A DNA stretch of 35,384 nt from a virus. The notes beneath the pieces are model-generated. The model was not told the DNA's origin. It worked only from the letters and a program-made list of their open reading frames with translations, and did not search any database. The first letter of the stretch is position 1, and the number at the start of each line of letters is the position of its first letter. Both the position numbers and the translations under genes were made by a program. The stretch is from positions 1-35,384 of IMG/VR virus record IMGVR_UViG_3300031673_000241; one strand, written 5' to 3'. Shown one piece after another: positions 7,900 to 23,775 of the stretch.

Positions 7900-9365
7900 T
7901 GGCACAACCAAATCAAAAAATGCCAGTACAAACACCTCAACAACCGGCTAGAAATCCTGATGAGGTTTTACCTCCCGCTAACCCACAACAGCAACAGCAA
8001 CAGCAACAGCCTCCGGGTGAGATGCAACGAACAATTAGCACGGGTCTTACAAATATGGGGTTTGCGTTCTTAGGTTCTGCGTTCGCGCAAGAATTTAATA
8101 ACCCTGCTCTTGCTAAGCCATTTGAACAAATGGGTGCAAATATTACTAATACTCTTCACGATAGATGGTGGAAAGCAGAGTATGATAATTTTATTTCACA
8201 AAATGGAAGACCTTATCAAGATAAAATGATGGCAATTAGAACAAAAATGTCCGATACAATGAGTATGATTAATCGAGGGGTATATACTGATGCCAACGGT
8301 GTAACACAAAATCTTGATTTAGATTCTCCTGCTGGGAAAGAAAGAGTAAGTTTATTAAGACAAGAAGCTTTTACTTCAAGTCTTTCGGGAATTAGTAATC
8401 TTACAGACCAGTATGCTCAGTCTGCTGGTAAGTATGCAAACAACCCATATATTAATAAAGAAATTGAGGGTGTGGTAACAAGACAAAGTGAATCAATTTC
8501 TCAACAATTTGGACCAACTATGGTTCAAGCAAATGAAGCATCTAGAGCCCAAACAAGACTCATGGACAGTCAGGCTCACAAAGAAGACAGATTGCCAGCC
8601 GACAGAAGTAAAGGTTCCGAGACTGATAAGCTTAAGAATGCTACAATCGGTGACCTTATTCAGAATAAGGGAATAGATTGGACTGCCGATTATCTACCTA
8701 ATACCCCACAAGGTAGAGAAAAGATAGCAGCATTCATTGGTGGAGCTAGAGCAGAAGTTACACAACAAATTATTGAAACACAAAAAAAGCCAGACGGAAC
8801 TCCATACAGTGAAACCAATGATGCAGAAGAATTAGGAAGAATGGTTGATACTCTGAATCCTAGAGTGATGAGAATTGCTACTGGTCGTGCCCTTAAACAA
8901 GTACGCCCCGATTTAGCTACTCCCTGGTCAGAGAACAACCCCACGTTCTTCCCTCATAAGGATATTGAAAAGGACTCTAGACCTCTTAATAGAAAAAACA
9001 CCGAAATCAGACAGAAAGACTACGTGGCAAACGCCATTCAAGTTATGGATGATATCGTTTATAACGAAAATCCAACTTCGTTTGATGGAACAGTTGATGC
9101 TGTTATGGCAGAAATCAACCGACAGCTTACAGAAGAGTTTGGCCTTTCTACCAGTACAGATATAACAAAGAAAAAGATTAGAACAGAAGTTATAAATACA
9201 ATTAATAATATGTCTAAGTTAAAGACGCTTAATCCAAATATTTATAACCACTTTAGTAAATCTGGTAAGGTGTCTACTGGACGCAGGGGCTCGCCGATGA
9301 GGGGGAGATCTGCGCGGCAGCGTGAGCGGTATAAGAAAGCAGGAATTTTAGTAGATGGCAGTTAG
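7899..9365 (+). CDS. Internal virion protein candidate, T7 gp15-like position
   Basis: A 488-aa protein with GGAGGA eight bases before its ATG. The first 45 residues are Pro/Gln-rich, including an eight-Gln run, followed by a short hydrophobic patch (GLTNMGFAFLGSAFAQEF). The rest is mostly helical and polar, rich in Gln, Asn and Arg, and ends with a very basic segment (GRRGSPMRGRSARQRERYKK). No catalytic motif is visible. Its place between the gp14-like and the 1206-aa protein suggests the second ejectosome component. It overlaps the next gene by 11 bp. Confidence 0.5.
   Translation: MAQPNQKMPVQTPQQPARNPDEVLPPANPQQQQQQQQPPGEMQRTISTGLTNMGFAFLGSAFAQEFNNPALAKPFEQMGANITNTLHDRWWKAEYDNFISQNGRPYQDKMMAIRTKMSDTMSMINRGVYTDANGVTQNLDLDSPAGKERVSLLRQEAFTSSLSGISNLTDQYAQSAGKYANNPYINKEIEGVVTRQSESISQQFGPTMVQANEASRAQTRLMDSQAHKEDRLPADRSKGSETDKLKNATIGDLIQNKGIDWTADYLPNTPQGREKIAAFIGGARAEVTQQIIETQKKPDGTPYSETNDAEELGRMVDTLNPRVMRIATGRALKQVRPDLATPWSENNPTFFPHKDIEKDSRPLNRKNTEIRQKDYVANAIQVMDDIVYNENPTSFDGTVDAVMAEINRQLTEEFGLSTSTDITKKKIRTEVINTINNMSKLKTLNPNIYNHFSKSGKVSTGRRGSPMRGRSARQRERYKKAGILVDGS
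7986..8009 (+). repeat. Four-unit CAACAG repeat encoding eight glutamines
   Basis: Four exact tandem copies of CAACAG, in frame with the gene at 7899, encode an octaglutamine run inside a Pro/Gln-rich N-terminal linker. Such repeats can change length by slippage in whole codons without breaking the frame. Confidence 0.9.
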
Positions 9366-12300
9366 AAATAAAGCAAATTTACTCGATGAAGAAGAACTTA
9401 TACACCCTCAGGGTGACGAGGCCCCTGCGTATGATACAAATCTTACTGGGCTAAAGAAGAGAACGTCCGACGCGAAAGATATTCGAGATCGTGGTGCTCG
9501 AAAAAGTAGAAACAATAATACAAATTTGCTTGAATCTCCTGACGCGCAGGATAGAATACTTACCCGTTCGCCCCAAGAAAAAAGAGAAAAATATGATCTT
9601 ATTCATAGAAAGAATAGAACCGATCTTCTAGAACCAACAAATCTTCCTAGAGAATTAAGTCTTGTTACTACGCCAAATGCTGGGCGAGAGGTTGATATAG
9701 AAGAAGATCAAGGTCTTGATGTTGATGTTATGGACTTTCTATTCGGTGGTGAAATGGCCGTTGTTGGACTCAAATACGATAACAGCGGTTTTCATCACGA
9801 TTGGGAAAGCGCGAAGCAACAATGGAGTGAAGAACCTCTTTGGTTAAATCTTCTTAATACTACATCACTGGTCGGGGGGATGGCTTTTCCTCTAGGCCGA
9901 GCAGCCTGGGCGTTTAAGAATGTTGGCAGGGGAGCTAGTTTATTAAAGAGAACGGCAGGAATAACTAAAGCTGACGAAGTTGCTAGGTTTAAAAACTTAG
10001 GATTGTTACATGAGGCTGAAAAAATAGAGGATGTTGGAGAATCCGGGTTAAAAAGACTTAGAAACCTAGAAATTTCACAAAATAAAACTCAAGATTTAGC
10101 TGAAAAATTAAATAAGAATATGCTTGGCGAAACTGAAGATTTTACCCTAATGGATAAAGTTAAAATGCAGTTTGCAAGTCGATTCACTAACAATTATTTT
10201 AAATTAACTTCAGAGGTTGCTGATGGTGGTGAAACTGCTACAAAAGCATTCCACAACAATCTTGATTCATTATTTAAAGCAGAGAATTTTGGGAAGTTTT
10301 TTTCGGAAGCTCCCGATGCTGCTGCTGGTAAAAAGATCTATGCTCACTGGGTGAATAAGATGCGCCCTGGGCTTATTAAGGGCGCCGCGTCGCTCACACC
10401 CTCAGAATTAAAATGGGCCGACGGCATGGAATTAGCCATGCGATCCCACCAAGCAGATGCTTTAAAGCACGGCCTCATTACCGACGATACAATTAAGAAA
10501 GTCGGCGAACTCCACATTCCAGCATTGGACATAAAAACCCCCAGACCAGACGTGTCTGTAAGTCGGAAGTATGTCCCACTTGGGCACAAAGACGGTGAAA
10601 CGTTTTTGCGTGCATTTGATATGCCCAGACTTGATAGTAAATCATTAAAGCCTAGAGGGAAGGATCTCCCTGAGGTAGCACAACGATTAATGAACGGGGA
10701 ACTAATTACAGACCCAACAGAGTTAACAACTCGGGGTCTTATTATGGACCGTTTACTGTTAAATAATTATAAGACAGTACGAGATATTGCAACCAATAGT
10801 GAATTCGCCGTTTCTGCTAGAGACGTTATGTTTAAATATGGAAGTATTCGGAAGGCCGAAGCCGCTGGATTTGTTAGCTTAGAAACATTAGAGCCTGGGA
10901 TTGCTACAACTCTTAAGCGTATGATTAAAAAGAGTAAGCCCGATTGGCTAGATGATGCCGATGAGCTTCCTATGATTAAGAAATCCGTATTCGAAGATCT
11001 ATTTGCTCCAGAAGGAATCTTCGGACAAACACAGATGGCCGCAAATGCGTTCGATGTTGCTACTGCGATTTTCAAGACTGCAAAGACGGCTTTATCACCC
11101 CCAACTCATCTTCAGAATCTCGCATCTAACTTTGTAATGCTAAGCCAGGCGGGATTCAATCCTCTTAAGCCTAGAAATATCCGACTTCAAAGTAAGATGG
11201 CTGGTGCCTTTGAAAAAATTGCGATTGGGGAAAAGCTTCGCAAAGAAGGTGGGGTTGGTAAAAAAGGAATTGAAAATCTTGGGATCAACCTTGGAAAAAT
11301 TGATATAGATGGAAAAGTCTTTAATCTTAATGATGAGATTTTTGATCCTGAGGTATTAAAGCTTCTAGAAGAATCCGCTTTTGAGTCGGTAGAAGGTTTT
11401 TCTAATCTAAAGAATATGGTAGATAGTCTAAGACCAGAACAAAGAGCCACTAAAGCCCTTGGTGAAGGATTCCTTAAAGCTAAAAAAGCCCTTCAGCTTG
11501 GAGATAAAGAAGGCTTCCGTTGGTTCGACCAAATGACAAAAGCCTATCTTGCTGAAGATATGGTTCCTAAAATGTCCTATTACATGAGTCTCCGGGCAGA
11601 AGGGCTTACAAAGAAAGCCGCTATCCTTGAAGTAGGTAGACGACTTCCTATGTATCAAACAGTAGGATCCTCTATTAGACAGGGCCGAAAGTGGGCGTTT
11701 CCTTGGTTAACGTTCCCCACCGAAGCTGTAAGAATTACTAAAAATAATCTAATGGATCATCCTCTTAGAATGATGCCTTGGTTACAAATGCCCGATATTA
11801 TTCAATCTGCTTTAACACTATCTGGACAAGCCCCAGGTGCAGACGACGTTGAAGAAACAAAGCGTCAGCTTCCTATGTGGGCCCAAAAAAGTGAAACAGT
11901 GGTTGCTGGAGAACACAGTGGAGCGATTGGCGGGGGTATAACTGGTGCTCTTGTTGGTGGAGTAGCCGGAGCCATTAAGGGTGGGGGAGCTGGTGGCGCC
12001 GCAATCGGAGCTGGTTTAGGTGCTGCTGCCGGTGCAGGATTTGGATTTGCAACAGAAACAGACGACGATAGACTACGAGGAACAGTATTAGACTGGCTTC
12101 CTCATGCAGCCTTTATGCTAGGTTCTACAAGCCCTGAAATGGGTGGAGATATTCTTCCGTTCAAAGATATTGGTGGGGCACTAGAGCAGTCGCCCGCGGC
12201 CCCATTTGCTATCTTAAAGCCCTTAATTGAAATCATGGAAGGTAAAACTTCTTGGGGTACAGATATTGGTGTGGAAGATACCGGAGACTATTTCTCTAAA

Positions 12301-12975
12301 GCCCTTGCTGGGTATATTGGATTCGTATCCCCTCCTATAATTCAGAAGTATGGATTTAAAACAACAACTCCTGATGTTTCAGCGTCTCTTGCTTTAACTG
12401 GAAAATCTGCCCCGGGAGATATTACAAATATTTCTAGATTACTCGTTGATTCGGGTATTGCAGTTGATCCAATTTCAGGTAAACCCGGAAACCTTTCAAC
12501 AGATCTTTTCTTAAAGAACTTTGGTATTTGGAAGTCTTGGGCTGCTGATCCGGCTCAACGTCTGGCTAATGAAGAAACAACCGAACGACACTTCCAAAAA
12601 ATAAGGTCAACAGTTTCTAAGAACCTTGCCTACCATCTTGAGAATGGAAATGACAAGGAATCTAAAAGACTATTGACCGTAGTGTTTTCTACTTTTGCGA
12701 AACAACACACAGATAATCCGCGAGAAGCACAAGCAAAATACTCTAAGTGGGTTGAAAGTAAAATGAACTCTATTGGTAAACACCCCAGATTAAGGGGATG
12801 GTCGGAAGCAGAATTAAAGGCTCGACACGCAGAAGCATCCCGGTTTGCCGGGAAGGAACGTGGTCGTGCGCGAGAAGAGATGCTTGACTTCTTAGGTAAG
12901 CAAGTTGAACAACGACAAGTGACTAGAGCGCAAGCAGAACGAATGAAAGCCTCCCAGAAGAAGGATCTTCTCTAA
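9355..12975 (+). CDS. Large internal virion / DNA-ejection protein candidate, T7 gp16-like position
   Basis: A 1206-aa protein, last gene of the late block. Residues 1-120 are charged. A hydrophobic stretch lies at about 160-185 (LWLNLLNTTSLVGGMAFPLG). A long helical region follows. A strong glycine zipper sits at about 853-900 (ITGALVGGVAGAIKGGGAGG and further GxxxG-like repeats), suited to membrane insertion or helix packing. The C-terminus is highly charged and helical and ends KASQKKDLL. These traits and the gene order fit the large ejection protein that helps build the trans-envelope DNA conduit. No lytic transglycosylase motif is evident at the N-terminus, unlike T7 gp16. Its TAA shares bases with the stop of the convergent minus-strand gene. 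Confidence 0.55.
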   Translation: MAVRNKANLLDEEELIHPQGDEAPAYDTNLTGLKKRTSDAKDIRDRGARKSRNNNTNLLESPDAQDRILTRSPQEKREKYDLIHRKNRTDLLEPTNLPRELSLVTTPNAGREVDIEEDQGLDVDVMDFLFGGEMAVVGLKYDNSGFHHDWESAKQQWSEEPLWLNLLNTTSLVGGMAFPLGRAAWAFKNVGRGASLLKRTAGITKADEVARFKNLGLLHEAEKIEDVGESGLKRLRNLEISQNKTQDLAEKLNKNMLGETEDFTLMDKVKMQFASRFTNNYFKLTSEVADGGETATKAFHNNLDSLFKAENFGKFFSEAPDAAAGKKIYAHWVNKMRPGLIKGAASLTPSELKWADGMELAMRSHQADALKHGLITDDTIKKVGELHIPALDIKTPRPDVSVSRKYVPLGHKDGETFLRAFDMPRLDSKSLKPRGKDLPEVAQRLMNGELITDPTELTTRGLIMDRLLLNNYKTVRDIATNSEFAVSARDVMFKYGSIRKAEAAGFVSLETLEPGIATTLKRMIKKSKPDWLDDADELPMIKKSVFEDLFAPEGIFGQTQMAANAFDVATAIFKTAKTALSPPTHLQNLASNFVMLSQAGFNPLKPRNIRLQSKMAGAFEKIAIGEKLRKEGGVGKKGIENLGINLGKIDIDGKVFNLNDEIFDPEVLKLLEESAFESVEGFSNLKNMVDSLRPEQRATKALGEGFLKAKKALQLGDKEGFRWFDQMTKAYLAEDMVPKMSYYMSLRAEGLTKKAAILEVGRRLPMYQTVGSSIRQGRKWAFPWLTFPTEAVRITKNNLMDHPLRMMPWLQMPDIIQSALTLSGQAPGADDVEETKRQLPMWAQKSETVVAGEHSGAIGGGITGALVGGVAGAIKGGGAGGAAIGAGLGAAAGAGFGFATETDDDRLRGTVLDWLPHAAFMLGSTSPEMGGDILPFKDIGGALEQSPAAPFAILKPLIEIMEGKTSWGTDIGVEDTGDYFSKALAGYIGFVSPPIIQKYGFKTTTPDVSASLALTGKSAPGDITNISRLLVDSGIAVDPISGKPGNLSTDLFLKNFGIWKSWAADPAQRLANEETTERHFQKIRSTVSKNLAYHLENGNDKESKRLLTVVFSTFAKQHTDNPREAQAKYSKWVESKMNSIGKHPRLRGWSEAELKARHAEASRFAGKERGRAREEMLDFLGKQVEQRQVTRAQAERMKASQKKDLL

Positions 12976-13157
12976 TCTTCTAATATTTCATTACCTTCCT
13001 CATCTAATTGAACTTCATGGAAGCCGTGTTCCCCGTATTCTCCGGGGAGTGCGGCTTCATCTTTTTCTGCGTCTTCTGTAAAAAGCATAGAGGTGCGACA
13101 AAATGTACACGTTAAACCATAAGATGTATTGCGTCCGCATTTGCATTTAATAATCAT
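12972..13157 (-). CDS. Small zinc-ribbon-like protein, 61 aa
   Basis: This short protein begins with a cysteine motif (KCKCGRNTSYGLTCTFC), four Cys suitable for one zinc, followed by an acidic tail ending DEEGNEILED. It is the last gene of the long minus-strand block, starts 11 bp inside the end of the preceding glycosyltransferase, and its stop overlaps the stop of the converging late gene (12972-12975). Its middle codons also encode, on the opposite strand, the probable late terminator. Function is unknown; a protein- or nucleic-acid-binding adaptor is possible. Confidence 0.65.
   Translation of the reverse strand: MIIKCKCGRNTSYGLTCTFCRTSMLFTEDAEKDEAALPGEYGEHGFHEVQLDEEGNEILED
13020..13066 (+). 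terminator. Rho-independent terminator for the late + strand transcript
   Basis: Stem arms GAAGCCG (13020-13026) and CGGCTTC (13052-13058) pair perfectly. Inside them TGT and GTG can form three G-U wobble pairs in RNA, then TCCCCG (13030-13035) pairs with CGGGGA (13043-13048) around a 7-base loop. ATCTTTTTCT follows on the + side, giving a U-rich tail. There is no U-rich tail in the minus direction. The hairpin lies 45 bp after the stop of the 1206-aa gene and inside the antisense of the 61-aa gene. Confidence 0.7.
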
Positions 13158-13905
13158 GTTGTAACTTTTCTAATTCAGGGTTCACTGGAAAATTTGCTAT
13201 GGGTTTCCTTAAGATAGGGAGTACATCTAACAAATTATAAGGAATCAACTGCCCTGGTTTATAGGTTGACTTCCCCTTTCGACGTTCACGACTAGGAACA
13301 TCTTTTTCTAATGGTGACCGTAGGGTGTTGTGAAAGTGGTAGCAGGTTATCGCGTCGAGATAAAATTCTCTAGAGGTGTTTTGGTTAAATACTGGTTCTT
13401 CTCCGGGGTGTGTTCCTTTCCAAATTGCTGTTTGATGATAAAGTCTATGATGAGATCTTAATTCACTATATCTTGTTTGTAGATCGGTGCCTATTTCAAT
13501 TCGTTTAACAACACCGTAGATTTTATCAATAGAATATTCTGCAAAAAATGATTTATAGGCAAATTGTGTCCACTTACTATCAGCAATATAATTAATATCA
13601 TCTTCGTTATACACCTCATCGCCGTCAATTATAAGATACCACTCTGATAGCGATTCAGCTATCATAGAGTTGCGAAATATCCCCTGGATCTGTGGGTGAG
13701 GTGTTTCTGTAAATGATCTGATATAGAATTCCGCTCCGCGTTTCTTTTCAAGTTCAACAAATCTATCTATAATATTAGGGGTTTCGTCTTTACTCCCAAC
13801 ATCGTAAATTACATAGCGATTAAACTTTCCCCTAAGACACTCTAATGAATAAGGAAGCCAATATTGGTCGTTAAGAACTAGAATATGAGGAACTATTTGG
13901 TGCAT
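13147..13905 (-). CDS. Family 2-like (GT-A fold) glycosyltransferase, 252 aa
   Basis: The protein opens HILVLNDQYWLPYSLECL and continues with a nucleotide-binding strand (YVIYDVGSKDETPNI). It has a clear metal-binding DxD motif at residues 94-96 (WYLIIDGDEVY). These are marks of GT-A glycosyltransferases that use nucleotide sugars. The C-terminal part has several His/Trp residues (RLYHQTAIWKGTHPGEEPVF) that may shape the acceptor site. The acceptor and sugar cannot be told. It is coupled to the upstream 144-aa gene by TGATG. It belongs to a four-gene glycosyltransferase island. Confidence 0.8.
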   Translation of the reverse strand: MHQIVPHILVLNDQYWLPYSLECLRGKFNRYVIYDVGSKDETPNIIDRFVELEKKRGAEFYIRSFTETPHPQIQGIFRNSMIAESLSEWYLIIDGDEVYNEDDINYIADSKWTQFAYKSFFAEYSIDKIYGVVKRIEIGTDLQTRYSELRSHHRLYHQTAIWKGTHPGEEPVFNQNTSREFYLDAITCYHFHNTLRSPLEKDVPSRERRKGKSTYKPGQLIPYNLLDVLPILRKPIANFPVNPELEKLQHDY

Positions 13906-14339
13906 CAGTTATAATTTCCTTTTAAGGCTTCCGTTGTGGCCTTGATAACCAGCGTCATGGCCTCGTTCTCGGCCCGCAGCGCCTCGTTCTCGGCCTCAAG
14001 CTTATTCACGTCGGCGGCGAGTAGACGTAGAGTGAACGCTGCGGAGTCCAAGATTCGTGACGCCTCGTGGTTCTTCGGGGGAATGACGCTGCGAAGCTCT
14101 GAGGCCAGCCGCCGCGCCTCTTCGGTGTTGGGGGTCATCGTGGGCTCCTTCCGCACCGGCTTATCGTACTCAGATTGAAGAGTAAGCCCAGAAGGTAAAG
14201 GTACCCAAGTCGGCTCGATATCTTCCGGATTCCACATTCTTTCCCACAAAGTTTCCCCTACTATCTCACAATGAGATGAAGGTCTAAATAATCTTCTCCA
14301 CCACGGACACCAACAGACTTCTGTAATTTTACTAGGCAA
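13905..14339 (-). CDS. W-rich / coiled-coil protein, apparent composite gene
   Basis: A 144-aa ORF with two dissimilar halves. Residues 1-65 are Cys/Trp-rich (EVCWCPWWRRLFRPSSHC) with AT-leaning codons like the neighbours. Residues from Met68 (MTPNTEEARRL) on are Ala/Glu/Leu-rich, end in a leucine-zipper-like coiled coil (KLEAENEALRAENEA) and use strikingly GC-rich codons. GAGGAAAT precedes the ATG at 14339. A second in-frame ATG begins the GC-rich half after GGAGCCCACG, so that half could be a separate small gene that became fused. No known family is recognised. It overlaps the CgeB-like gene by 8 bp. Confidence 0.6.
   Translation of the reverse strand: MPSKITEVCWCPWWRRLFRPSSHCEIVGETLWERMWNPEDIEPTWVPLPSGLTLQSEYDKPVRKEPTMTPNTEEARRLASELRSVIPPKNHEASRILDSAAFTLRLLAADVNKLEAENEALRAENEAMTLVIKATTEALKGNYN
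13960..13995 (-). repeat. Two copies of a 15-bp repeat with 21-bp period (coiled-coil heptad)
   Basis: The 15-mer gcctcgttctcggcc occurs at 13960-13974 and again at 13981-13995, a 21-base period that equals one protein heptad. On the minus strand it encodes the repeated EAENEA segments of the coiled coil. It sits in the GC-rich patch and probably arose by local duplication. Confidence 0.85.
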
Positions 14340-15255
14340 AGCAAATTTCCTCTATTTGTTGTACCCTATGTTTAATAAGGTGTTTTTCTTTCACTAAATG
14401 ATAAGCTTTCGTAGCCATATTAGCTGCTATGTCGGCCTCTTCTAGTACCCAATCTACCTGAAGTCCTAATTCTGGTAAACTTGAGTAACCTAAGAAGTGA
14501 GTTCCTTCTTCAAATAATAGTGCCATTCCATCCTCAGGATCCCGATCAGAAATTAATGGTCGTCTCATTAACATAGACTCTAAGACCCGTTGGTTGGGCC
14601 CGTCGTGCTTCTGCCCTCGATTGAATAAGACCCTACAATCAGCCATTGCTATTGCAGTAGAGGGCCATCTTGCTCTATTATGCTGACCTATTTCTCTTAT
14701 ATCAACAGGGTACTCACGACTAAGACATATAGTAGCGAGATCATTAGCGCGATCCAATCCTCCTTTCGAGCCAAAGAATCCGAAATACATCTTAGGAAAA
14801 GTCCACTGGCGAGTATGTTGAAGGTAATCAAACCATACATCGTCGCTAGCATTGGGACACCAATGAGCAGATGGTAGATTTGAAAAAAGATCCCGCTTAC
14901 GGTACACAGCAAAAAAAACGTGCTGATAATTCTTAGCAAGACGACGATGGAGACTCGGATAGCCGTGGGTATCAATAAGCCTGACGGCACTTGGGATTGG
15001 GCATGTCGAATCATTGTACTGAAAATGGAGTTTCCCATCTTTACCTCTACCACAATCTATATCTAAGAATAGATCGTGTTGTTTAATTTCTTTCTCAGGC
15101 ATTTCCTCCATGCTCTGATAGCCACGGTGGCCTTTACCTACGAGGGTGACTTGATGATTCATAGCAAATTCTCTAGCAAAAGAATTAGAATATGTGGGCA
15201 TCGGTCTACCTTGCTTATCAACATCATATCTATAACAGAGGATTACTTTAGCCAT
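14332..15255 (-). CDS. CgeB-like GT-B glycosyltransferase, 307 aa
   Basis: The N-terminal half has a Rossmann-like arrangement (KVILCYRYDVD; HDLFLDIDCGRG; SAVRLIDTHG). The C-terminal half has the pattern of CgeB-type or GT4-type transferases: FPKMYFGFFGSKGG, then DCRVLFNRGQKHDGPNQRVLE, where DGPNQRVLE occupies the E-x7-E position, and RRPLISDRDPEDGMALLFEE, followed by a helical tail (TKAYHLVKEKHLIKHRVQQI). It likely transfers a sugar from a nucleotide donor; acceptor unknown. GGGAG stands seven bases before the ATG. It lies between a tiny Cys-rich gene and the composite gene in the glycosyltransferase island. Confidence 0.75.
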   Translation of the reverse strand: MAKVILCYRYDVDKQGRPMPTYSNSFAREFAMNHQVTLVGKGHRGYQSMEEMPEKEIKQHDLFLDIDCGRGKDGKLHFQYNDSTCPIPSAVRLIDTHGYPSLHRRLAKNYQHVFFAVYRKRDLFSNLPSAHWCPNASDDVWFDYLQHTRQWTFPKMYFGFFGSKGGLDRANDLATICLSREYPVDIREIGQHNRARWPSTAIAMADCRVLFNRGQKHDGPNQRVLESMLMRRPLISDRDPEDGMALLFEEGTHFLGYSSLPELGLQVDWVLEEADIAANMATKAYHLVKEKHLIKHRVQQIEEICFA

Positions 15256-15421: not shown

Positions 15422-16189
15422 TCATTCTAAAACTAGTGGATGAAATACATATTCAGTCTTTTCTAAGTCTTTACGGATCTTTGCATTTTTTTGGAGTTGT
15501 CGTTTAATAACTTGTGGTTCTTCCACCCATCGTCCCCCTTCAGTATCCCCTATTTGCTTAAATTTAACCTGGGCCTCTCGTATGTCAATCCATTTGAGTG
15601 GATGTTTGATGAGCCCTGCTTTATATACTCGCGATGAGAATTCTCCGTGGGCGTATCCTGCTCCTGAAAATAAGGGGTTGAAAGCACCCACCGCTCGCAG
15701 GACTGAAGATGTAATAAAAGTAAGGTCACCACGAGGACTAGGACCATAGATAGGCGTAAGGGAATGTTTCTGCATATATTTTGAAAAATTAGACACAGTT
15801 TCTTCCACCTGCTTGTCTTGTACTCTGCAAAAATGGTGGATATTGGATCTTCTTGCTGCTTCTTCATATGTTTCAAACCATCCTTTTTCTGTTGGGATTA
15901 AATCATCTTCCAAGATGCACATATATTGGCAATCTTGCATAGCCCATAAAGCCCTATTTTTATTAGCTGCAACACCCTTGTTGGGCCCACGGATTAAAAT
16001 AATATCTTTGGGAAGATGATCTATTATTGACTTCACCCCAAAAGCCCCGGTTCCTTTCGTAGATCCATCATCACAAACAAACACTTTAGTCCCCGGTGCT
16101 GTCGTATCTAAAACTGCTTCTACTATTTCTGTAAGGTTGTTTAATCTATTATAATGACAGATTGCAACCGCTCTTTTTATTTCAGACAT
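15422..16189 (-). CDS. Family 2 glycosyltransferase, 255 aa
   Basis: A GT-A fold transferase: RAVAICHYNRLNNLTEIV at the N-terminus, the donor-binding strand VFVCDDGSTKG (about residues 37-45), GPNKGVAANKNRALW, and the metal-binding EDD at 94-96 (MCILEDDLIPTEKGW). LRAVGAFNPLFSGAGYAHGE resembles the acceptor-side motif of the GT2 family. I choose ATG 16189 because AGAGG lies nine bases before it; a TTG two codons upstream (16195) is possible. The start overlaps the end of the three-domain transferase gene by 8 bp. Confidence 0.85.
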   Translation of the reverse strand: MSEIKRAVAICHYNRLNNLTEIVEAVLDTTAPGTKVFVCDDGSTKGTGAFGVKSIIDHLPKDIILIRGPNKGVAANKNRALWAMQDCQYMCILEDDLIPTEKGWFETYEEAARRSNIHHFCRVQDKQVEETVSNFSKYMQKHSLTPIYGPSPRGDLTFITSSVLRAVGAFNPLFSGAGYAHGEFSSRVYKAGLIKHPLKWIDIREAQVKFKQIGDTEGGRWVEEPQVIKRQLQKNAKIRKDLEKTEYVFHPLVLE

Positions 16190-19100
16190 TATCAATTACC
16201 TCTTCTAATGCATCTAAATAAGGATCGGGATCGGCATATCTACAGGCTGTTTCATACCCATTTTTAACAATTTCTGAAAATAATTGAGGGTTCTTTATAA
16301 GCTTATCGGCTGCTTTTACCATTTGAGCGATGTTACCAATATTAACTTCTAAACAATTTTTCCCGGCTTCTACGAATTCTGCCCCGGTGTTGGTTGTAAT
16401 AACAGCGGTACTCGCGGACATGGCCTCTAAGACAATTCTTCCTAAACCTTCTGTATGGGAAGCTGAAAGCCAAATATCAATTTTATGCATAGTATTAGCC
16501 ATCTGTTCTCTATTAGGAGATATTACATATCCCATCCACTTTGGCTTCATCTTAGCGAAGTCAGGCCATTCACCGATGGCTACAATTTCCACCTTATCTT
16601 TATAAGCCATTTTCAGGGCCTCGACTACTTTCATTGCGTCACCCGTTCCCTTTAATGGGTGTTGGTGTGCTAAGAAACCAATTCTCACTGTAGAATTAAT
16701 AGACCCATACTGTCTCATATTGGGAGGGCAATTAAATATTTCATGCCCATAGTGGAACCACCCAATCCTTGTTGCTTCCCTAGCCGGGTGAGTCCAACCA
16801 TCTCCCACCATAGGATTTTCACAAGCATCTTTTAACCAATTTGTACTTGTAACAATCGCGTCCCACGGAAGCTTCAATCCATTATCTTCTAATGACTGGA
16901 ACCGCTTATTGTGGGATAGTTTAAGCATGATCTTTTTACGGGCAGACTTAAGCCCCGTAAAGAATTCGTTTTGATCGTTATCAGAATTACTAATTAAAAT
17001 ATGAGATTTTTTAATCTTGCGCCAATTTAAATTAATAGGGACTTCACTTAAATTTACAACCTCTGGATTAATATCTGGGTAAATTGTATATAGATCAACA
17101 TCATGTCCCCTGCGTTGTAACCCATTAGCTAGATGTATAATCGTTGTAGGTCCACCATGTTTCCGCAAGTGCGGTGTAATTACAGAGATTTTTCGCGGTC
17201 GAATCAGCAGCCGTAGCTTCTTTTCTAGAAGATTATTAAATTGATTAACTGCATCTTCTCTCATCTGATTAACTTGTGGTGCTGAATTTTTTAACTGTTG
17301 GAGCTTTTCAGGGTTGTTGAATAATAGATCAAAAATTTCTATTGCAACTTCTTCAGGGGGGGTGTTATTAGGAAGAATTCTTGAATTATCTTCATTTGCA
17401 TATTCTCGAATCCCTCTGTTATCCCAAGATACAACGGCTGCTCCAGAAACCATAGCCTCTAAAGAAGGCATCCCGTATGAGTGTATTATAGCAGGATCAC
17501 AGAAAATATCCACTTCTGTACTAAGTAGTGAAGCTAAATAAGACTGACTAACGTTTCCTAACCCAATAATAGATGGGCACTCTGAAACAGCATCTACCCC
17601 ATAAGCCATAATTCTTAATTCTTTTTGGTGTTCCTTACCTAGTGCAGATAGTTTCTTCGCTACTTCAACCCCGCGAGTATAACCCTTAAAAGGATATTGG
17701 GTCTGAAGGGAGAATAACACGGTTGGCCTCTCATCTCCATTGTCCCGCGATCTAGTGTGGAAAAGTCTTTTATCAACTCCGGGTCTTACGAATCCTAAAG
17801 TATTTACTTTATATTCTTCTTGAATCTTTTTATTAAGAGATTCGGATCCTGCGATTACATATTGAACCTTAGAAAAGGCATCAATCATCCCTTGCTTCAT
17901 TTCCTCAGGGCACAATTCAGGATCATCACTCTGAGCGAACAGAACTGAGCGGAGGTGGAAATTCTTCTTTGTAAGTTCAAAAATGGGTTTTACAATCTCG
18001 CAAGTAGCCGCAACTACTACACCTTTTTCAAAAACTCGCTCGATAAATTTTTCTTCAAATTCTTCAATCGAATTGAACACAATTGGACTTGCTCTCAACT
18101 CACCAAGAACGGGGATAACAGATTCCTCTGGATTTCTTTTAATTAGAACAACTTTAGCATTAACTCCATTCTCAATATGCTGATTTACGATATCAGTAAT
18201 AAACTTCATACCCCCACAAAATGCGGTACTGTACACTACAAATGCAATATTATAGGGGCTATCAGTAGTTGAAACATCTGTAGGAAGGTTAGCACGATAT
18301 GGAGACATAATCTTCTCAGCATCAAAAGATTTACCCCAGTGTCGATATTGGGGCCACAACTGGTGGAACCGTGCCGAGCCGGATTGTCTTTTTGCGTTGT
18401 GCTTAGCTTGGCCCAAGGAACTAAAAGAGGTTCCCCTTTCATGAAACAAATAAACATCATCAGCTAAAACCGCTCGCCACCGAGGGTACTCACCATTTTT
18501 AATGTGAGTGATTGTTTTCATCCACAGATCGGTTTCTTCCCCATAATTTTCATATCCTTCATCAAATTGCCCGATTTCATCTAGCAATTCGCGCTCTAAC
18601 ATGAAACAAAACCCTGTTGGCATAATCTCAGGGTATTTATGAGATGAGGTTGCTTCAAATCCTCGGTTCATATCTTGGTATGAAAATCCTTCCTGCATAT
18701 TTACATTAATAAGCGCCGTATTGTTTGTCATAGGATTAACGATCTTATTTTTAGGGTCGGCTTCTAGAGCCAGAACCATTTTCGATAACCACCCCTTTGT
18801 TACAATAACATCTGAGTTTAAAACACATATATAAGGATTTTTACTGTTATTGATTCCACGGTTGACTGTGGCTGCAAATCCTTTATTTTTATTGTTCCAA
18901 AGAATTCGAGCATTTTCTTTTTCATTTAAAAGAGTAATTAGATGGGGTTTAATCCAAGGATCGGTTGATTTGTCGTCTACAACAGTTAGATTAAAGGGCC
19001 AGTCAGTGTGTTTATAGATTGAGTTAATACATTCTTCAACAACCTGAAAGTTATTAAATACTGGTACAATAATATCTACTGGGAGGATTCCCTTCTTTGA

Positions 19101-19328
19101 AATTTGTGCTAGGCTTTTAGCTCGGGTTTTATTAGATTCCGCGAGTCTTCTTGCTCCCTTAAGAGTAGACTGCATAAAGCCGTGAAGTTGTTTCTGAATT
19201 ACATTAGGTAACGTAACTTCACCACCAGAGGCGCCGTCTTGAAGTAGCTGACCCTCAAAGCTTTCTACTATGGCTTCTTCGGGATCCTCCCAAATAGGGA
19301 TCCCACTATCTGTTGATTTAAATGGCAT
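16182..19328 (-). CDS. Three-domain glycosyltransferase fusion (GT2-GT4-GT4), 1048 aa
   Basis: Residues 1-80 are a leader without known motif. Residues about 83-335 form a GT2 domain (VDIIVPVFNNFQVVEECINS, LTVVDDKSTD, NKGFAATVNRG, NSD at 171-173 as the DxD site, EETD at 264-267). Residues about 355-700 form a GT-B domain (YNIAFVVYSTAFCGGMKFI, RPGVDKRLFH, SYGMPSLEAMVSGA) in which the first Glu of the E-x7-E motif is His616. Residues about 711-1048 form a second GT-B domain (ITPHLRKHGGPTTIIHLANG, IGFLAHQHPLKGTGDAM, SHTEGLGRIVLEAM) with E960 and E968 intact. It probably adds several sugars in sequence to one acceptor. Start: ATG after GAGGA with 7-base spacing. It overlaps the dNMP kinase gene by 11 bp. 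Confidence 0.88.
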   Translation of the reverse strand: MPFKSTDSGIPIWEDPEEAIVESFEGQLLQDGASGGEVTLPNVIQKQLHGFMQSTLKGARRLAESNKTRAKSLAQISKKGILPVDIIVPVFNNFQVVEECINSIYKHTDWPFNLTVVDDKSTDPWIKPHLITLLNEKENARILWNNKNKGFAATVNRGINNSKNPYICVLNSDVIVTKGWLSKMVLALEADPKNKIVNPMTNNTALINVNMQEGFSYQDMNRGFEATSSHKYPEIMPTGFCFMLERELLDEIGQFDEGYENYGEETDLWMKTITHIKNGEYPRWRAVLADDVYLFHERGTSFSSLGQAKHNAKRQSGSARFHQLWPQYRHWGKSFDAEKIMSPYRANLPTDVSTTDSPYNIAFVVYSTAFCGGMKFITDIVNQHIENGVNAKVVLIKRNPEESVIPVLGELRASPIVFNSIEEFEEKFIERVFEKGVVVAATCEIVKPIFELTKKNFHLRSVLFAQSDDPELCPEEMKQGMIDAFSKVQYVIAGSESLNKKIQEEYKVNTLGFVRPGVDKRLFHTRSRDNGDERPTVLFSLQTQYPFKGYTRGVEVAKKLSALGKEHQKELRIMAYGVDAVSECPSIIGLGNVSQSYLASLLSTEVDIFCDPAIIHSYGMPSLEAMVSGAAVVSWDNRGIREYANEDNSRILPNNTPPEEVAIEIFDLLFNNPEKLQQLKNSAPQVNQMREDAVNQFNNLLEKKLRLLIRPRKISVITPHLRKHGGPTTIIHLANGLQRRGHDVDLYTIYPDINPEVVNLSEVPINLNWRKIKKSHILISNSDNDQNEFFTGLKSARKKIMLKLSHNKRFQSLEDNGLKLPWDAIVTSTNWLKDACENPMVGDGWTHPAREATRIGWFHYGHEIFNCPPNMRQYGSINSTVRIGFLAHQHPLKGTGDAMKVVEALKMAYKDKVEIVAIGEWPDFAKMKPKWMGYVISPNREQMANTMHKIDIWLSASHTEGLGRIVLEAMSASTAVITTNTGAEFVEAGKNCLEVNIGNIAQMVKAADKLIKNPQLFSEIVKNGYETACRYADPDPYLDALEEVIDNV

Positions 19329-19908
19329 TATTTTTTCCTCGTTCGCGCAAATCTGCGCGTCGTAATATCTCTACAATTTGATCTATACGTAGTTGTAATC
19401 CCGCAATATCCCCCGATTCGGCGATAATTGTGTAATCAAATTTCCAATGGTCTAACGCAATCTCAGAAGGATGAAAATCAAAATTTGGAAAACCATAATT
19501 ATTTCTAATAATTCTTACGGTATGTCCGTGCTCAAAATACTCAACAGCTTCTATTTCATTCGGGAATCGGCAATCGGTAATAACAAAATCTTTAACCCCC
19601 TGTTTATGTAATTTATCAATCTTTTTGAATGCAATTTTAACCCAAAAATCTGCATCAACAATCGCTCTAAAACATTCGGTGCCAATTAACTGTATTAGCT
19701 GTCGCGGTGTTCTTTTCCATAGAGGGTCTTTCAGATCTTTTTCTGCATCACCATAAAGCTGCCCGTGCGTCAATCCAAGAAGTTGCTTTCCTATTAATTC
19801 TTTTAATGGCTCTGCATAAATAATTTCAGTAAACCCGTGCTTCTCTACAAGCTGCTTGGCTACAATACTTTTTCCGGCCTGTTTCTTACCACTCAAACCA
19901 AGGATCAT
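19318..19908 (-). CDS. Deoxynucleoside monophosphate kinase-like P-loop protein
   Basis: A 196-aa P-loop kinase. The phosphate-binding loop is GKKQAGKS (residues 7-14) directly after the first strand. GFTEIIYAEPLKELIGKQLL and RQLIQLIGTECFRAIVDADF match phage dNMP kinases in the T4 gp1/T5 style, with an R-rich lid region and the substrate-side strand FVITDCRFPNEIEAVE. The expected reaction is phosphorylation of dNMPs to dNDPs with ATP, in the cytoplasm. It follows ThyX with an ATGA overlap, in keeping with dTMP as one substrate. An adenylate-kinase-like role cannot be excluded. Confidence 0.8.
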   Translation of the reverse strand: MILGLSGKKQAGKSIVAKQLVEKHGFTEIIYAEPLKELIGKQLLGLTHGQLYGDAEKDLKDPLWKRTPRQLIQLIGTECFRAIVDADFWVKIAFKKIDKLHKQGVKDFVITDCRFPNEIEAVEYFEHGHTVRIIRNNYGFPNFDFHPSEIALDHWKFDYTIIAESGDIAGLQLRIDQIVEILRRADLRERGKNNAI

Positions 19909-20534
19909 TTAAGCCACCCGAACCCTGCTAGAGAGCCATTAAATTGGTTAGTGCCTGTAACTAGGCACAACATCTTATCTGCAACGTCTTGGATTTCTTG
20001 TTGAGAGTTTGCATGGCCTCTTAGATTTATAAAGTGCATAAAGGATCTAAAATTAAATGAAACATCCATCGTTACTTGATTGGCGTAGGGAAGCAAGAAT
20101 CTTGCAGATTCCTTGGCTCTTTTTCTGGAGAACCCATATCGACTTGTTAGTAGTTCGATTGCTGCATGATAATTAATATAAGCTTTGTCTATATGATTCT
20201 TATACACATTAACCAATTCTTCCGGCCAATCCCGAGGTACATAAAATCTGTCTTCTTTTAATTCTTTATAGCGTGCGGATTCTGCATTAATACTTACGCC
20301 CACCCGATGCTTAAGTAATTGGATGTGTGTAGCTGTTTCACAAGTAACTAAAAAATGTAAATAACTTTTTTCAAATGGAGTATGGTGCCCATTCTCAGCA
20401 AGCATCTTTAACATCTTATCAATTCTACCTGCTTTGTCTGGGGTAAGGTCGCGATTGGTAGAAGTCCAGGCACTTAAGGCGTGCGTTTCATCCCCACCAT
20501 AATACCCAAGTAATTCTACTTTATTTTGAGTCAT
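19905..20534 (-). CDS. thyX: Flavin-dependent thymidylate synthase
   Basis: A 209-aa ThyX, close to the family's usual length. It makes dTMP from dUMP using FAD, NADPH and methylenetetrahydrofolate. Signs: GHHTPFEKSYLHFLVTCETA near residues 49-68, then the signature region HIQLLKHRVGVSINAESARY, and late conserved residues (ARFLLPYANQ, MHFINLRGHANSQQEIQ). The canonical signature is RHR followed by seven residues and Ser; here it is KHR with eight residues before Ser. GAGGAA precedes the ATG by five bases. It overlaps both neighbours by 4 bp (ATGA), in a nucleotide-metabolism cluster with dNMP kinase and RNR. Confidence 0.93.
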   Translation of the reverse strand: MTQNKVELLGYYGGDETHALSAWTSTNRDLTPDKAGRIDKMLKMLAENGHHTPFEKSYLHFLVTCETATHIQLLKHRVGVSINAESARYKELKEDRFYVPRDWPEELVNVYKNHIDKAYINYHAAIELLTSRYGFSRKRAKESARFLLPYANQVTMDVSFNFRSFMHFINLRGHANSQQEIQDVADKMLCLVTGTNQFNGSLAGFGWLK

Positions 20535-20731
20535 AATGATTCCTCATGATTACAATTAGGACAAGAAACAGATACATCATAAATTCCACCAGAGGGGCAC
20601 CCTCTTATTCTTAGAGAATAAGAATAATTATCCCAATCTGTTCCCTCCCACGTAAGTTTAAAGTCGGTCTTACAACGAGGGCAACGAACTATAGTCATTT
20701 CCTCGTCGCGGTTTATTTTTTCTTCTTCCAT
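20531..20731 (-). CDS. Small zinc-ribbon protein, 66 aa
   Basis: Two Cys pairs, VRCPRCKTDF and VSCPNCNHEE, frame a beta-rich middle (TWEGTDWDNYSYSLRIRGCP), the pattern of a four-Cys zinc ribbon. Its ATG lies inside the end of the 58-aa gene upstream (19-bp overlap) and its stop overlaps the thyX start by 4 bp. A shorter start at 20698 would have its GAGGA only one base away, so the longer form is preferred. No specific function can be assigned. Confidence 0.65.
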   Translation of the reverse strand: MEEEKINRDEEMTIVRCPRCKTDFKLTWEGTDWDNYSYSLRIRGCPSGGIYDVSVSCPNCNHEESL

Positions 20732-20889
20732 TTTGTTTCAAAATGTTCCTTTAAATCCCACTCGGTTTCACAGTGTTTTCCCCAGTGGTTCCAGCATATT
20801 TCTACTTCTTTATGTGGATAATTAGGGAACGCTGCGTAGATTATAGAACTCGGTTGTTTACACTTAGAAACTTCGCAAGTCAGGGGCAT
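20713..20889 (-). CDS. Small Cys/His protein, 58 aa
   Basis: An ORF starting MPLTCEVSKCKQPSSIIYAA and continuing with EICWNHWGKHCE, so CxxxxC and CxxHxxxxHC groups could bind zinc. It ends in a basic run (ETKWKKKK). It fills the stretch between the deoxyribosyltransferase-like gene (26-bp overlap) and the zinc-ribbon gene (19-bp overlap). AGG lies eight bases before the ATG. The overlaps are longer than usual here, which lowers confidence, but the paired Cys and the clean fit support a real gene. Function unknown. Confidence 0.6.
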   Translation of the reverse strand: MPLTCEVSKCKQPSSIIYAAFPNYPHKEVEICWNHWGKHCETEWDLKEHFETKWKKKK

Positions 20890-21292
20890 ATCCTAAACCT
20901 AATAGGTGCTTGAAAATTATTTGCTTGGCATCTTTAAAGCTTGTTACTGTATGATGGCTGTGGTATTGCATCCACGGGCTTAGTTTAGCACCTTCGGGAG
21001 TAACTGTCACCACAAACTTTCCGGTTCTAAAAGCATGAAATACTTCCATCGACGTACCGGCACTAGGCTGAGGAGCATTTACAATAAGAATATCTGACTG
21101 TGCAACATCAATAAGATCTAATTCCACAATTTCTCTAAAACTCTCTTGTTCTTTTCCTCGATAATCTCTTCGCATAGGATCAAGAATTTTAAAGTCCTTG
21201 AAATAGAAGTCTTTTTTAATCTCTTCTCGCCAATCCTTTGATTCAGCGTCGCTACATCCTAATATCGGTCCACATAAATATAACGTTATCAT
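20864..21292 (-). CDS. Nucleoside 2-deoxyribosyltransferase-like protein, 142 aa
   Basis: The N-terminus TLYLCGPILGCSDAESKDWR, the pattern ELDLIDVAQSDILIVN (D59 and D62) and SAGTSMEVFHAFRTGKFVV follow the nucleoside 2-deoxyribosyltransferase fold. Glu83 in GTSMEV matches the position of the catalytic nucleophile of that family. Members move deoxyribose between bases or hydrolyse nucleotides. Here it stands between thyX and RNR, so base or nucleotide salvage is plausible, but the substrate cannot be read off. Its ATG follows AAGGAA and overlaps the previous stop (ATGA). Confidence 0.75.
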   Translation of the reverse strand: MITLYLCGPILGCSDAESKDWREEIKKDFYFKDFKILDPMRRDYRGKEQESFREIVELDLIDVAQSDILIVNAPQPSAGTSMEVFHAFRTGKFVVTVTPEGAKLSPWMQYHSHHTVTSFKDAKQIIFKHLLGLGYAPDLRSF

Positions 21293-21429
21293 ACTTTTCC
21301 TTCCATTCTTTTTTCAAGACAATCAGAACACTCCACACGTTCAGGATTACGTTTACAATGTTTATAGATTTCTTTACTTTTTGTTACTATTCTTTTTTTA
21401 CAAAAATAACATCTTATTTTATATTCCAC
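21289..21429 (-). CDS. Tiny zinc-finger-like protein, 46 aa, probable GTG start
   Basis: The coding stretch contains RCYFCKKR and VECSDCLEKR, two CxxC pairs 24-30 residues apart. The best start is GTG 21429-21427: GAGGG ends five bases before it and the overlap with the RNR gene is then only 11 bp. An ATG at 21453 would give 54 aa with 35 bp of overlap and a weaker ribosome site. Its stop overlaps the next gene by 4 bp. Likely a single zinc-binding module; function unknown. Confidence 0.6.
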   Translation of the reverse strand: MEYKIRCYFCKKRIVTKSKEIYKHCKRNPERVECSDCLEKRMEGKV

Positions 21430-23023
21430 AAACTCCCTCTTTACAGTTTTCATCAACAACCGCAATTGCATTGTGCTTAATTGCCGTCTCATATTTGATA
21501 GGGGTAATAGGCTGCCCTGCTCTTGCCCCATCTGGATAAACCGTAATCCCTCTAAGCTTGGGTAGATACTCTAATAGAATCTCAGCAAACTTCTTAGCAT
21601 TAGAATTTCCAGGCTCTCCCCATTCAGGGAGATTGATTGTACTGGAAATAGCTTGATCTACGAAAGATTGAACATATGCCTGCATCTGAATGCGACGCTC
21701 TACCTTCCCTGAAAGCTTGATAGAATCCTCGATATCATTAGGGTCGCTAATAATCCCTTCTTCTAGAAGCTTCTTTACCGTAGGATCAACCACATATTCT
21801 TGTTGCCAGACTCCATCATTTCCGAGGTATCGTCGTTTGTATGCGACACAAAAGACGGGCTCAATTCCGGTAGATGTTTCTCCAATAATTCCAATTGTTC
21901 CAGTAGGAGCAATAGCGCGGACAGCAACGGGTCTAACTCCACCCAATTTCTTAGAAAATTTGGTTGCTTCGTCGTCGCTAATATTAGCCCACGCAGACAA
22001 CCACTTACCTAGCTCTCCATTGGGCTCATATCGCTCCCCATTGCGTAAACACCACTCATGTAGACCCATGATACCTAATCCGATTCTACGTTGCTTCTCG
22101 CGGATTGTGTAGAAATCTTCATGAGGAAGCCAGCTACGATAGGTACCAAGATAGAGAAACCGTGTGGCGATTCTGGTCACTCTTTTCAACTCATTTACAT
22201 CTTTAATTCTAGAAAGATTAATAGACCCTAAGTTACAAACATCGGAATCTATCTCTGAAACAACCTCACAACAAGGATTTCTTAATACTTCATTAGACTG
22301 CTTCTTTAAATTAATAGAGAATCCGGGCTCTCCTGTCTTGCACATACTCTTACAAATTCTATAATAAAGATTCCAAACAGCGTCGTCTTTTGTTACTTTC
22401 TTAAAAAATTCATCATCAAGATTTACTGAAATATTGGTCATGTCCATCGGCGCCGGGAAATTGAAATCAGCTTCCTTCATTGCCTGTATAACAGTAGTCC
22501 AGTTCTTAACTGTAATGAATTCTTCAACATCTCCGTGATTCCAAGGAAGCCCTGCCCATAGAGCGGATCTTCTTTTACCACCAGCCATAACGTGTCTAGC
22601 AATCTCATTAATCATCTTCATAAGAGAAAGGGGTCCAGAAGCGATTCCTCCAAATCGCTTAATGGGAGTACCTTTAGGACGGATATCTCCGTAATAGGTA
22701 CCAACTCCACCTCCCGTAGATAATGCAGTAATGTGCTTACCTAAAAGAGTGGACCACCCTTCTCTTGAATCTTCTGCTTTTAAAAGAAAACAATTATTAA
22801 ATTGTTCAATTTCTTTACTGGCTTGGGCTAAATATCTCCCACCCGGAATAAACTTCCTAGTAGAAATAACCTCAGCAAAATCATCATATAAATCTTTATG
22901 ATCCGAACCTGCAACAGCTTTTGCAACTCGTTTAGCGCAATCCTCCCAGGTTTCATCTGGGTGGATTGCATAAGTTCTCTTAAATATTAAATTGGCGAAA
23001 TCGCCTAATGGCTCAGTACCCAT
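21419..23023 (-). CDS. nrdJ: Class II (adenosylcobalamin-dependent) ribonucleotide reductase
   Basis: A 534-aa RNR catalytic subunit that reduces ribonucleotides to deoxyribonucleotides. Motifs: redox Cys78 (FNNCFLLKAEDS), the glycine loop TGGGVGTYYGDIRPKG, the finger loop NPCCE at 249-253 with Cys251 as radical site, the partner Cys263 (DVCNLGSINL), and APTGTIG with GIEPVFCVAYKRR. The C-terminus ENCKEGVCGI carries a Cys pair that could shuttle electrons. There is no ATP-cone and no small-subunit gene nearby, which together with compact size points to class II. The start shares TAATG with the exonuclease stop, and AAGGAAAG lies upstream. Confidence 0.88.
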   Translation of the reverse strand: MGTEPLGDFANLIFKRTYAIHPDETWEDCAKRVAKAVAGSDHKDLYDDFAEVISTRKFIPGGRYLAQASKEIEQFNNCFLLKAEDSREGWSTLLGKHITALSTGGGVGTYYGDIRPKGTPIKRFGGIASGPLSLMKMINEIARHVMAGGKRRSALWAGLPWNHGDVEEFITVKNWTTVIQAMKEADFNFPAPMDMTNISVNLDDEFFKKVTKDDAVWNLYYRICKSMCKTGEPGFSINLKKQSNEVLRNPCCEVVSEIDSDVCNLGSINLSRIKDVNELKRVTRIATRFLYLGTYRSWLPHEDFYTIREKQRRIGLGIMGLHEWCLRNGERYEPNGELGKWLSAWANISDDEATKFSKKLGGVRPVAVRAIAPTGTIGIIGETSTGIEPVFCVAYKRRYLGNDGVWQQEYVVDPTVKKLLEEGIISDPNDIEDSIKLSGKVERRIQMQAYVQSFVDQAISSTINLPEWGEPGNSNAKKFAEILLEYLPKLRGITVYPDGARAGQPITPIKYETAIKHNAIAVVDENCKEGVCGI

Positions 23024-23775
23024 TATATTTTCTTTCCTTTTTCAAATCGTGATGTAGCCATTGTATGATACTTACCACATTTTGTACACTGTGCTTGTGT
23101 TTTCTTATATCCACTCGCTGTAACTCGTCTCTTGCTTACTTTCATTTTCCCACCGCAGCTAGGACAATCATTTAAATTAATAGCTACGCTAGATCGTGCT
23201 GGGATATAAGGGTCCATTTTCTTATATATCTTCTCTAATAGGATAACATCCTGCTTACAGTATGCCATCATCTGATTTAAAGCTTTAGCATCTTTATCTA
23301 AAACAATCTTCTTCCACAAGTCATATCCGGAAGATTTCTTCTGCCCTAAACCTAAAAATTGTGCAATATAATCTAGTTTATTAGAGTTGAAATTAAACTT
23401 ACCGCGAGCCTTCTGTAGTGTATCTATACTTACATAGTCAGGAGCCATTAGGATTCCATGTTTAATACATCTTGTTCTAATCCATTTAATATCAAATTGA
23501 TCTCCATTATGGGCTACGATCTCATCGGCTTCATTCATTATTGGGAGGAATTTTTCTAATAAAGCTTTATCATCTTGCTTACTATCCCAAGGAATGCAAT
23601 GTACTTGCTTCTCGCCTTCCCACTTATACCCTATACAGATGATCGCTCGTTCTTTAACAATACTTTGATGGGTTATTGTTAACTTATACCCGGGCCGCCA
23701 AAATAACCCCACGTTTGGACTAGTCTCAATATCGAGGAAGAGGCGGCGTAAAGCCGGTGGTCTTGGTTTACTCAA
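23023..23775 (-). CDS. DEDDy 3'-5' exonuclease with C-terminal zinc ribbon
   Basis: A 250-aa RNase H-like exonuclease. Metal ligands: D15 and E17 (FLDIETSP), D95 (AHNGDQFDIKW), and Y172/D176 (AYCKQDVILLE), the complete DEDDy set. A zinc ribbon follows (C204, C207, C230, C233; CPSCGG and CTKCGK). It probably trims DNA ends or single strands during replication and repair; an RNA substrate is possible. The start codon is TTG (23775-23773), eight bases after AGGAG. There is no ATG ahead of the DIET motif, so the TTG is well supported. It overlaps the neighbouring nuclease by 4 bp. Confidence 0.85.
   Translation of the reverse strand: MSKPRPPALRRLFLDIETSPNVGLFWRPGYKLTITHQSIVKERAIICIGYKWEGEKQVHCIPWDSKQDDKALLEKFLPIMNEADEIVAHNGDQFDIKWIRTRCIKHGILMAPDYVSIDTLQKARGKFNFNSNKLDYIAQFLGLGQKKSSGYDLWKKIVLDKDAKALNQMMAYCKQDVILLEKIYKKMDPYIPARSSVAINLNDCPSCGGKMKVSKRRVTASGYKKTQAQCTKCGKYHTMATSRFEKGKKI

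Follow-up and report, generated by a model that had tools for sequence, protein, structure and literature searches.

A GT2-GTB-GTB glycosyltransferase fusion and its conserved gene cassette in an uncultivated lineage of tailed phages

Glycosyltransferases (GTs) that combine several modules in one chain are already known from bacteria and giant viruses. Among the latter, the chlorovirus proteins A064R and A111/114R are three-domain enzymes that build the glycan of the capsid protein, and A111/114R has been proposed to add three of its core sugars (PMC9614988). In bacteria, WbdA carries two or three mannosyltransferase modules, one for each type of linkage, while ORF6 of the Klebsiella O7 locus joins a methyltransferase-kinase to two GT2 modules (PMC11231755). 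Mycobacteriophages glycosylate their capsid and tail-tube proteins with GTs of their own, such as Che8 gp110 and Corndog gp38 (PMC12363180). For the most part, accounts of phage-encoded glycosylation involve a single GT or a small number of separate ones.

The protein analyzed here is a fusion of one GT2 and two GT-B domains, encoded in a window of 35,384 bases that comprises a whole IMG/VR virus record. Its closest working analogue is the three-domain chlorovirus A111/114R. Like A111/114R and A064R of PBCV-1, it is virus-encoded and consists of three fused modules, which in the chlorovirus enzymes act on one defined glycan (PMC9614988). Those enzymes, however, come from an algal virus, have smaller domains and, as described, lack the GT2-GTB-GTB order; moreover, the third domain of A064R is a methyltransferase. 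Their acceptor is the N-glycan of the major capsid protein, whereas for the phage fusion a virion protein is the putative acceptor. WbdA and O7 ORF6 likewise fuse several GT modules in one chain, but they are bacterial rather than phage proteins, serve as O-antigen polymerases, and differ in the type and order of their modules. The best fold match in the PDB, over about 900 alignment columns, was the multi-domain capsule multienzyme of Actinobacillus pleuropneumoniae (8qoy), with a TM-score of only 0.23 and 12% identity, which indicates a different arrangement of domains. The virion-glycosylation genes of mycobacteriophages are also phage GT genes, three of them in a row in Che8, but they encode separate proteins and include no three-GT fusion. 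New in the present case are the GT2-GTB-GTB arrangement and the cassette that accompanies it, both fixed throughout a lineage of uncultivated phages, and a GT4-like module with histidine in place of glutamate.

Domain architecture and presumed active sites

The fusion gene (16182..19328) lies on the minus strand, which the preliminary description had not specified, and forms a single ATG-initiated reading frame of 1048 aa. Pfam detected Glycos_transf_2 (PF00535, 8.5e-23) at aa 86-253, followed by two Glycos_transf_1 stretches, the best match of which (PF00534, 3.2e-23) covers aa 883-1026. Four regions, all encoded on the minus strand, were delimited from these matches, from PDB profile matches and from the structure model: a variable, mostly helical N-terminal segment of low model confidence (aa 1-82; 19083..19328), a GT-A (GT2) domain (aa 83-345; 18294..19082), a first GT-B (GT4-like) domain (aa 355-706; 17211..18266) and a second GT-B (GT4-like) domain (aa 707-1048; 16185..17210).

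Compared as family profiles with solved structures, the three parts of the protein each matched known GTs independently. The top match of the GT2 third was chondroitin synthase (2z86/2z87; 4e-22), that of the middle third a GT4 enzyme of the BshA type (2jjm/3mbo; 1.4e-7), and that of the last third 5i45 (2.6e-17). An AlphaFold model computed from 36 homologues (pLDDT 88.5, pTM 0.81) contains three GT folds; it was used in place of an earlier, poor model from seven sequences (pLDDT 63, pTM 0.30). In the 36-sequence model, pLDDT is mostly about 85-97 in both GT-B domains and mostly 81-94 in the GT-A domain, with weaker stretches near residues 261-270 and 301-320, and the middle domain is folded into two alpha/beta halves, as in the GT-B fold. 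Fold searches listed GT-B enzymes (such as BshA, MshA and PimA, with TM-scores, normalized by target length, of about 0.44-0.72), together with proteins from giant viruses and uncultured phages that contain several GTs; none of the structures listed matched the whole three-domain arrangement. Profiles, model and homologues thus agree with the preliminary description in placing one GT2 and two GT-B glycosyltransferases in this one protein.

The presumed active sites were examined in an alignment of 41 sequences, which, together with the sequence itself, also bore out the motif details given earlier (NSD at 171-173, His616 and E960/E968). In the N-terminal domain, the PF00535 match spans the nucleotide-binding region, and both the DxD-like motif and the acidic motif of GT2 enzymes are present, N171-x-D173 and E264-E265 being kept in 40-41 of the 41 sequences. 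In the DxD-like motif N171-S172-D173 (18810..18818, minus strand), N and D occur in 41/41 and S in 39/41 sequences; the presumed catalytic motif is E264-E265-T266-D267 (18528..18539, minus strand). Residues D118, D119, N171, D173, E264 and H296 are invariant in this domain. The C-terminal domain has the attributes of family GT4, namely the PF00534 match, the phosphate-site lysine (K893) and an E-x7-E motif (E960-x7-E968; 16425..16451, minus strand), both glutamates of which occur in 41/41 sequences; its invariant residues are G726, K893, E960 and E968. The middle domain resembles GT4 enzymes in fold and profile, with G372, G373 and E624 invariant, but it carries H616-x7-E624 (17457..17483, minus strand; H616 at 17481-17483, E624 at 17457-17459) instead of the canonical E-x7-E and was therefore filed as GT4-like rather than as canonical GT4. 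In the alignment with 2jjm, the two glutamates of E-x7-E correspond to His616 (first position) and E624 (second position). Positions E265, D267, K548 and H616 each vary in one to three of the 41 sequences.

Since position 616 is His in 40 of the 41 sequences and Gln in the remaining one, His616 is, on the alignment, a fixed feature of the family and not a sign of decay. The median dN/dS of close pairs was 0.123 for the GT2 domain, 0.132 for the first and 0.134 for the second GT-B domain, values which, as pairwise Nei-Gojobori estimates on non-independent pairs, indicate similar constraint and are no formal test. The N-terminal segment, by comparison, gave a dN/dS of 0.228 and a mean pairwise identity of 0.32; mean pairwise identity was 0.62 in the GT2 domain, 0.50 in the middle domain (the lowest of the three GT domains) and 0.54 in the last. 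A decaying middle domain is disfavoured by a dN/dS equal to that of its neighbours and by the retention of His616 and E624. In a count of His- and Glu-type motifs among 46 genomes of the phylum of the metagenome-assembled genome (MAG) described below, the patterns matched almost nothing.

Relatives, gene cassette and phage genomes

Relatives of the fusion protein are encoded by 49 viral contigs, which stem from 27 metagenome datasets. When genome contigs were scanned, a further relative turned up; its contig, of 119.6 kb, is assigned to a deltaproteobacterial MAG in GenBank. The viral-contig searches used the C-terminal domain, a 1206-aa neighbour and then an alignment; a first scan of viral contigs with the whole protein had returned no relatives. 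All 41 complete relatives are single ORFs with the same domain order and are 40-52% identical to the window protein, while the other nine run off their contigs. The order thus recurs in other phages, and the sequencing join envisaged at the outset, by which an assembly artefact would have fused neighbouring genes, is refuted by these 41 single-ORF relatives, which come from many datasets as well as from a MAG in GenBank; we consider it practically negligible. When 50,697 GenBank phage records were searched by tblastn, no match extended over more than 23% of the protein; the matching parts, about 25% identical, lay in the GT2 domain or close to it. The MAG contig may be read in three ways: as a prophage, as a phage binned by chance, or as a hint to the host.

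In the window, genes for a DNA polymerase, a UvsX-like recombinase, SbcCD, ribonucleotide reductase, ThyX and a nucleotide kinase occur together with structural-type genes for an internal-virion-type and a tail-type protein. The polymerase, UvsX-like, SbcCD, internal-virion and tail-type genes identify it as a tailed phage and support the term phage used in the preliminary description. The record has no terminal repeat and is probably a fragment; by megablast, its first 25 kb matched none of the 50,697 GenBank phage records. One relative's contig (G001, which carries locus L094) measures 119,599 bases; its first 40 bases recur at position 119512 and its last 40 near the start. It is probably complete, given this repetition of the start at the end. 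The contigs G002, G003 and that of L135 are of similar size to G001 (119.6 kb). The ThyX gene of the window (19905-20534) encodes a protein 63% identical to that of one relative and about 26-30% identical to those of the nine others matched, a split that suggests two types of ThyX in the lineage.

The fusion gene heads a cassette of four GT genes with six GT domains, the order of which is kept in 25 loci (near-duplicates, such as L092 and L094, included). The second gene (15422..16195, minus strand), which overlaps the fusion gene, encodes a GT2 protein of 257 aa (PF00535, 3.1e-13; phrog_2456, 8e-22) and the third (14332..15255, minus strand) a GT-B-like protein of 307 aa (PF13524, 4.4e-14), both in 25/25 loci. 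The fourth (13147..13905, minus strand), present in all 22 loci that reach so far, encodes a GT2-like protein of 252 aa, for which the PF00535 score (7.6e-4) lies under the Pfam cut-off. The cassette is convergent with structural genes: the gene for a 1206-aa protein of the structural module (9355..12975, plus strand) follows it, in the same orientation, in all of these 22 loci. At the other end, a deoxynucleoside monophosphate kinase gene (19318..19908, minus strand; phrog_139, 1.4e-42) overlaps the start of the fusion gene but adjoins it in only 5 of the 25 loci, and is thus a neighbour that lies outside the module in most relatives. An ORF of 144 aa between two cassette genes of the window (13905-14339) has no relative in the 25 loci.

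In several relatives the cassette contains additional genes. An IMP dehydrogenase and a HAD phosphatase are encoded in that of L112, with similar genes in L133; proteins that appear, from their sequences, to resemble peptide deformylase occur in L118, L120, L121 and L128; and a UDP-glucose/GDP-mannose dehydrogenase is encoded inside the cassette of L128 (L128:16914-17756). A second glycan locus lies beside the terminase gene of G001 (16000-26202) and includes genes for a sulfotransferase, an epimerase, methyltransferases and GT2 proteins. Epimerase-family genes were detected in 5 of the 9 contigs searched.

The cassette proteins have no strong transmembrane segment. The GtrA flippase (PF04138) was absent from nine contigs, in a search whose control was positive in 8 of 14 genomes, and the cassette does not have the composition of a Gtr cluster for O-antigen conversion, in which GtrA occurs beside GtrB and a membrane GT. 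The matches of the GT2 domain to PHROGs include weak ones to GtrB-like O-antigen conversion families. The nearest GenBank relatives of the second cassette gene are mostly mycobacteriophage GTs of about 24% identity, many of them encoded towards the right end of genomes of the Cheoctovirus type. Direct comparison of the cassette profiles with Che8 gp108-gp110 gave nothing significant, with marginal scores for the GT2 domain only; in view of this result and of the low identity, the link to mycobacteriophages is only a hint.

Proposed function and competing explanations

Because the three-module enzyme always lies beside three more GT genes, the virus probably makes a short, defined chain of sugars, which may be placed on the virus particle itself. 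In the reading that we prefer, and to which we give about even weight, the fused GT is an assembly line for several sugars of one phage-specified oligosaccharide, the likeliest acceptor being a virion protein. An assembly line for a defined oligosaccharide had been suggested in the preliminary description; it appears plausible and is strengthened by the conserved six-domain cassette. The fusion protein would be a soluble three-module GT, each module of which would take an activated sugar and add one residue (or one type of linkage), and several successive sugars would thereby be added to the growing chain. The three neighbouring GTs would add the remaining sugars or attach the first one, and the product would be a defined, phage-specified oligosaccharide, carried most likely by a virion protein. 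The activity of all three modules, the sugars, the order of their addition and the acceptor are elements that we infer. The virion is the preferred acceptor owing to the fixed position of the cassette beside structural genes, the lack of membrane segments and of GtrA, and the precedents cited above, although position beside structural genes is no proof of a virion target.

The predicted GT folds, the constrained presumed active sites in all three modules and the fixed order of fusion and cassette support such an assembly line, and the sugar-modification genes elsewhere in the relatives (epimerase, sulfotransferase, methyltransferases and dehydrogenase) likewise count for it, whereas the missing canonical first glutamate of the middle domain counts against it. 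Tentatively, the proposal may be extended to the whole of this large lineage of uncultivated tailed phages, with genomes of ~120 kb to judge from complete-looking members: as a core system, they may share an oligosaccharide assembly line in which three of the six GT domains are fused and a GT4-like module has His for the first Glu of E-x7-E, and may use it to decorate their own virion with a lineage-specific glycan.

The main rival explanation, which we regard as rather unlikely, is that the cassette remodels the host surface (LPS, capsule or another envelope glycan), for instance to block superinfection. Host glycans are the target of many phage GTs, the cassette proteins could use host lipid-linked sugars, and the weak GtrB-like matches of the GT2 domain would fit. 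The absence of GtrA from nine contigs, in a search whose control worked, and the lack of transmembrane segments speak against it, as does the large replication module of the window, where no integrase was seen; to a phage of this kind, lasting seroconversion would presumably bring little benefit. The middle GT-B domain might, on the other hand, be non-catalytic, binding a glycan or the acceptor or only holding the other two modules, which seems unlikely. The replacement of the first glutamate and the lowest conservation among the three GT domains favour this possibility, but the other residues presumed to form the donor pocket are retained (E624, G372-G373, R534 and, as K or R, K548) and His616 is itself constrained. 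In a dead site subject to drift, the retention of such residues would be unexpected, although a binding site might keep them; constraint is no proof of catalysis, as a binding site would be constrained likewise. The earlier suggestion that one domain had become structural is thus disfavoured, His616 being fixed and the middle domain as strongly constrained as the others.

That the GTs glycosylate modified bases in the phage DNA is improbable. Phages RB69 and Thanatos, which bear sugars on cytosine, provide a precedent (PMC6024577, PMC12838424). In the window, ThyX, the nucleotide kinase and other nucleotide genes adjoin the cassette. The known base hydroxymethylases belong to the ThyA-type family, yet genes of this type were absent from the nine phage contigs in a search with a working control, for which reason DNA glycosylation is disfavoured, though base modification might proceed by a ThyX-based route. 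A search for TET/JBP proteins gave no matches, but neither did its positive control.

That both the fusion and the six-domain cassette to which it belongs are fixed suggests a defined glycan as a core trait of the whole phage lineage, and concrete proteins and residues are now at hand for testing. If active, the His-for-Glu module would be informative on the chemistry of GT4 enzymes.

Intein-like inserts and long cellular proteins

Two homologues of the fusion protein, L124 (aa 279-668) and L133 (aa 268-657), carry an intein-like insert of 390 aa at exactly the same spot of the GT2 motif, EE|(T/S)D. The insert lacks an N-terminal Cys or Ser, its block B reads GHxW, block F contains a Cys, and a Thr stands close to the end, features that resemble those of class 3 inteins. 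It also includes a LAGLIDADG domain. The two inserts are 69% identical, against 46% for the exteins, which fits horizontal movement.

Three long proteins from Calditrichota MAGs (L137, L138 and L140; 2166-2882 aa) were rejected as relatives, since they match through the GT2 domain only and are built differently. They contain several GT2 domains and TPRs, some of them also GT-B domains, and sulfotransferase domains are present in L137 and L138.
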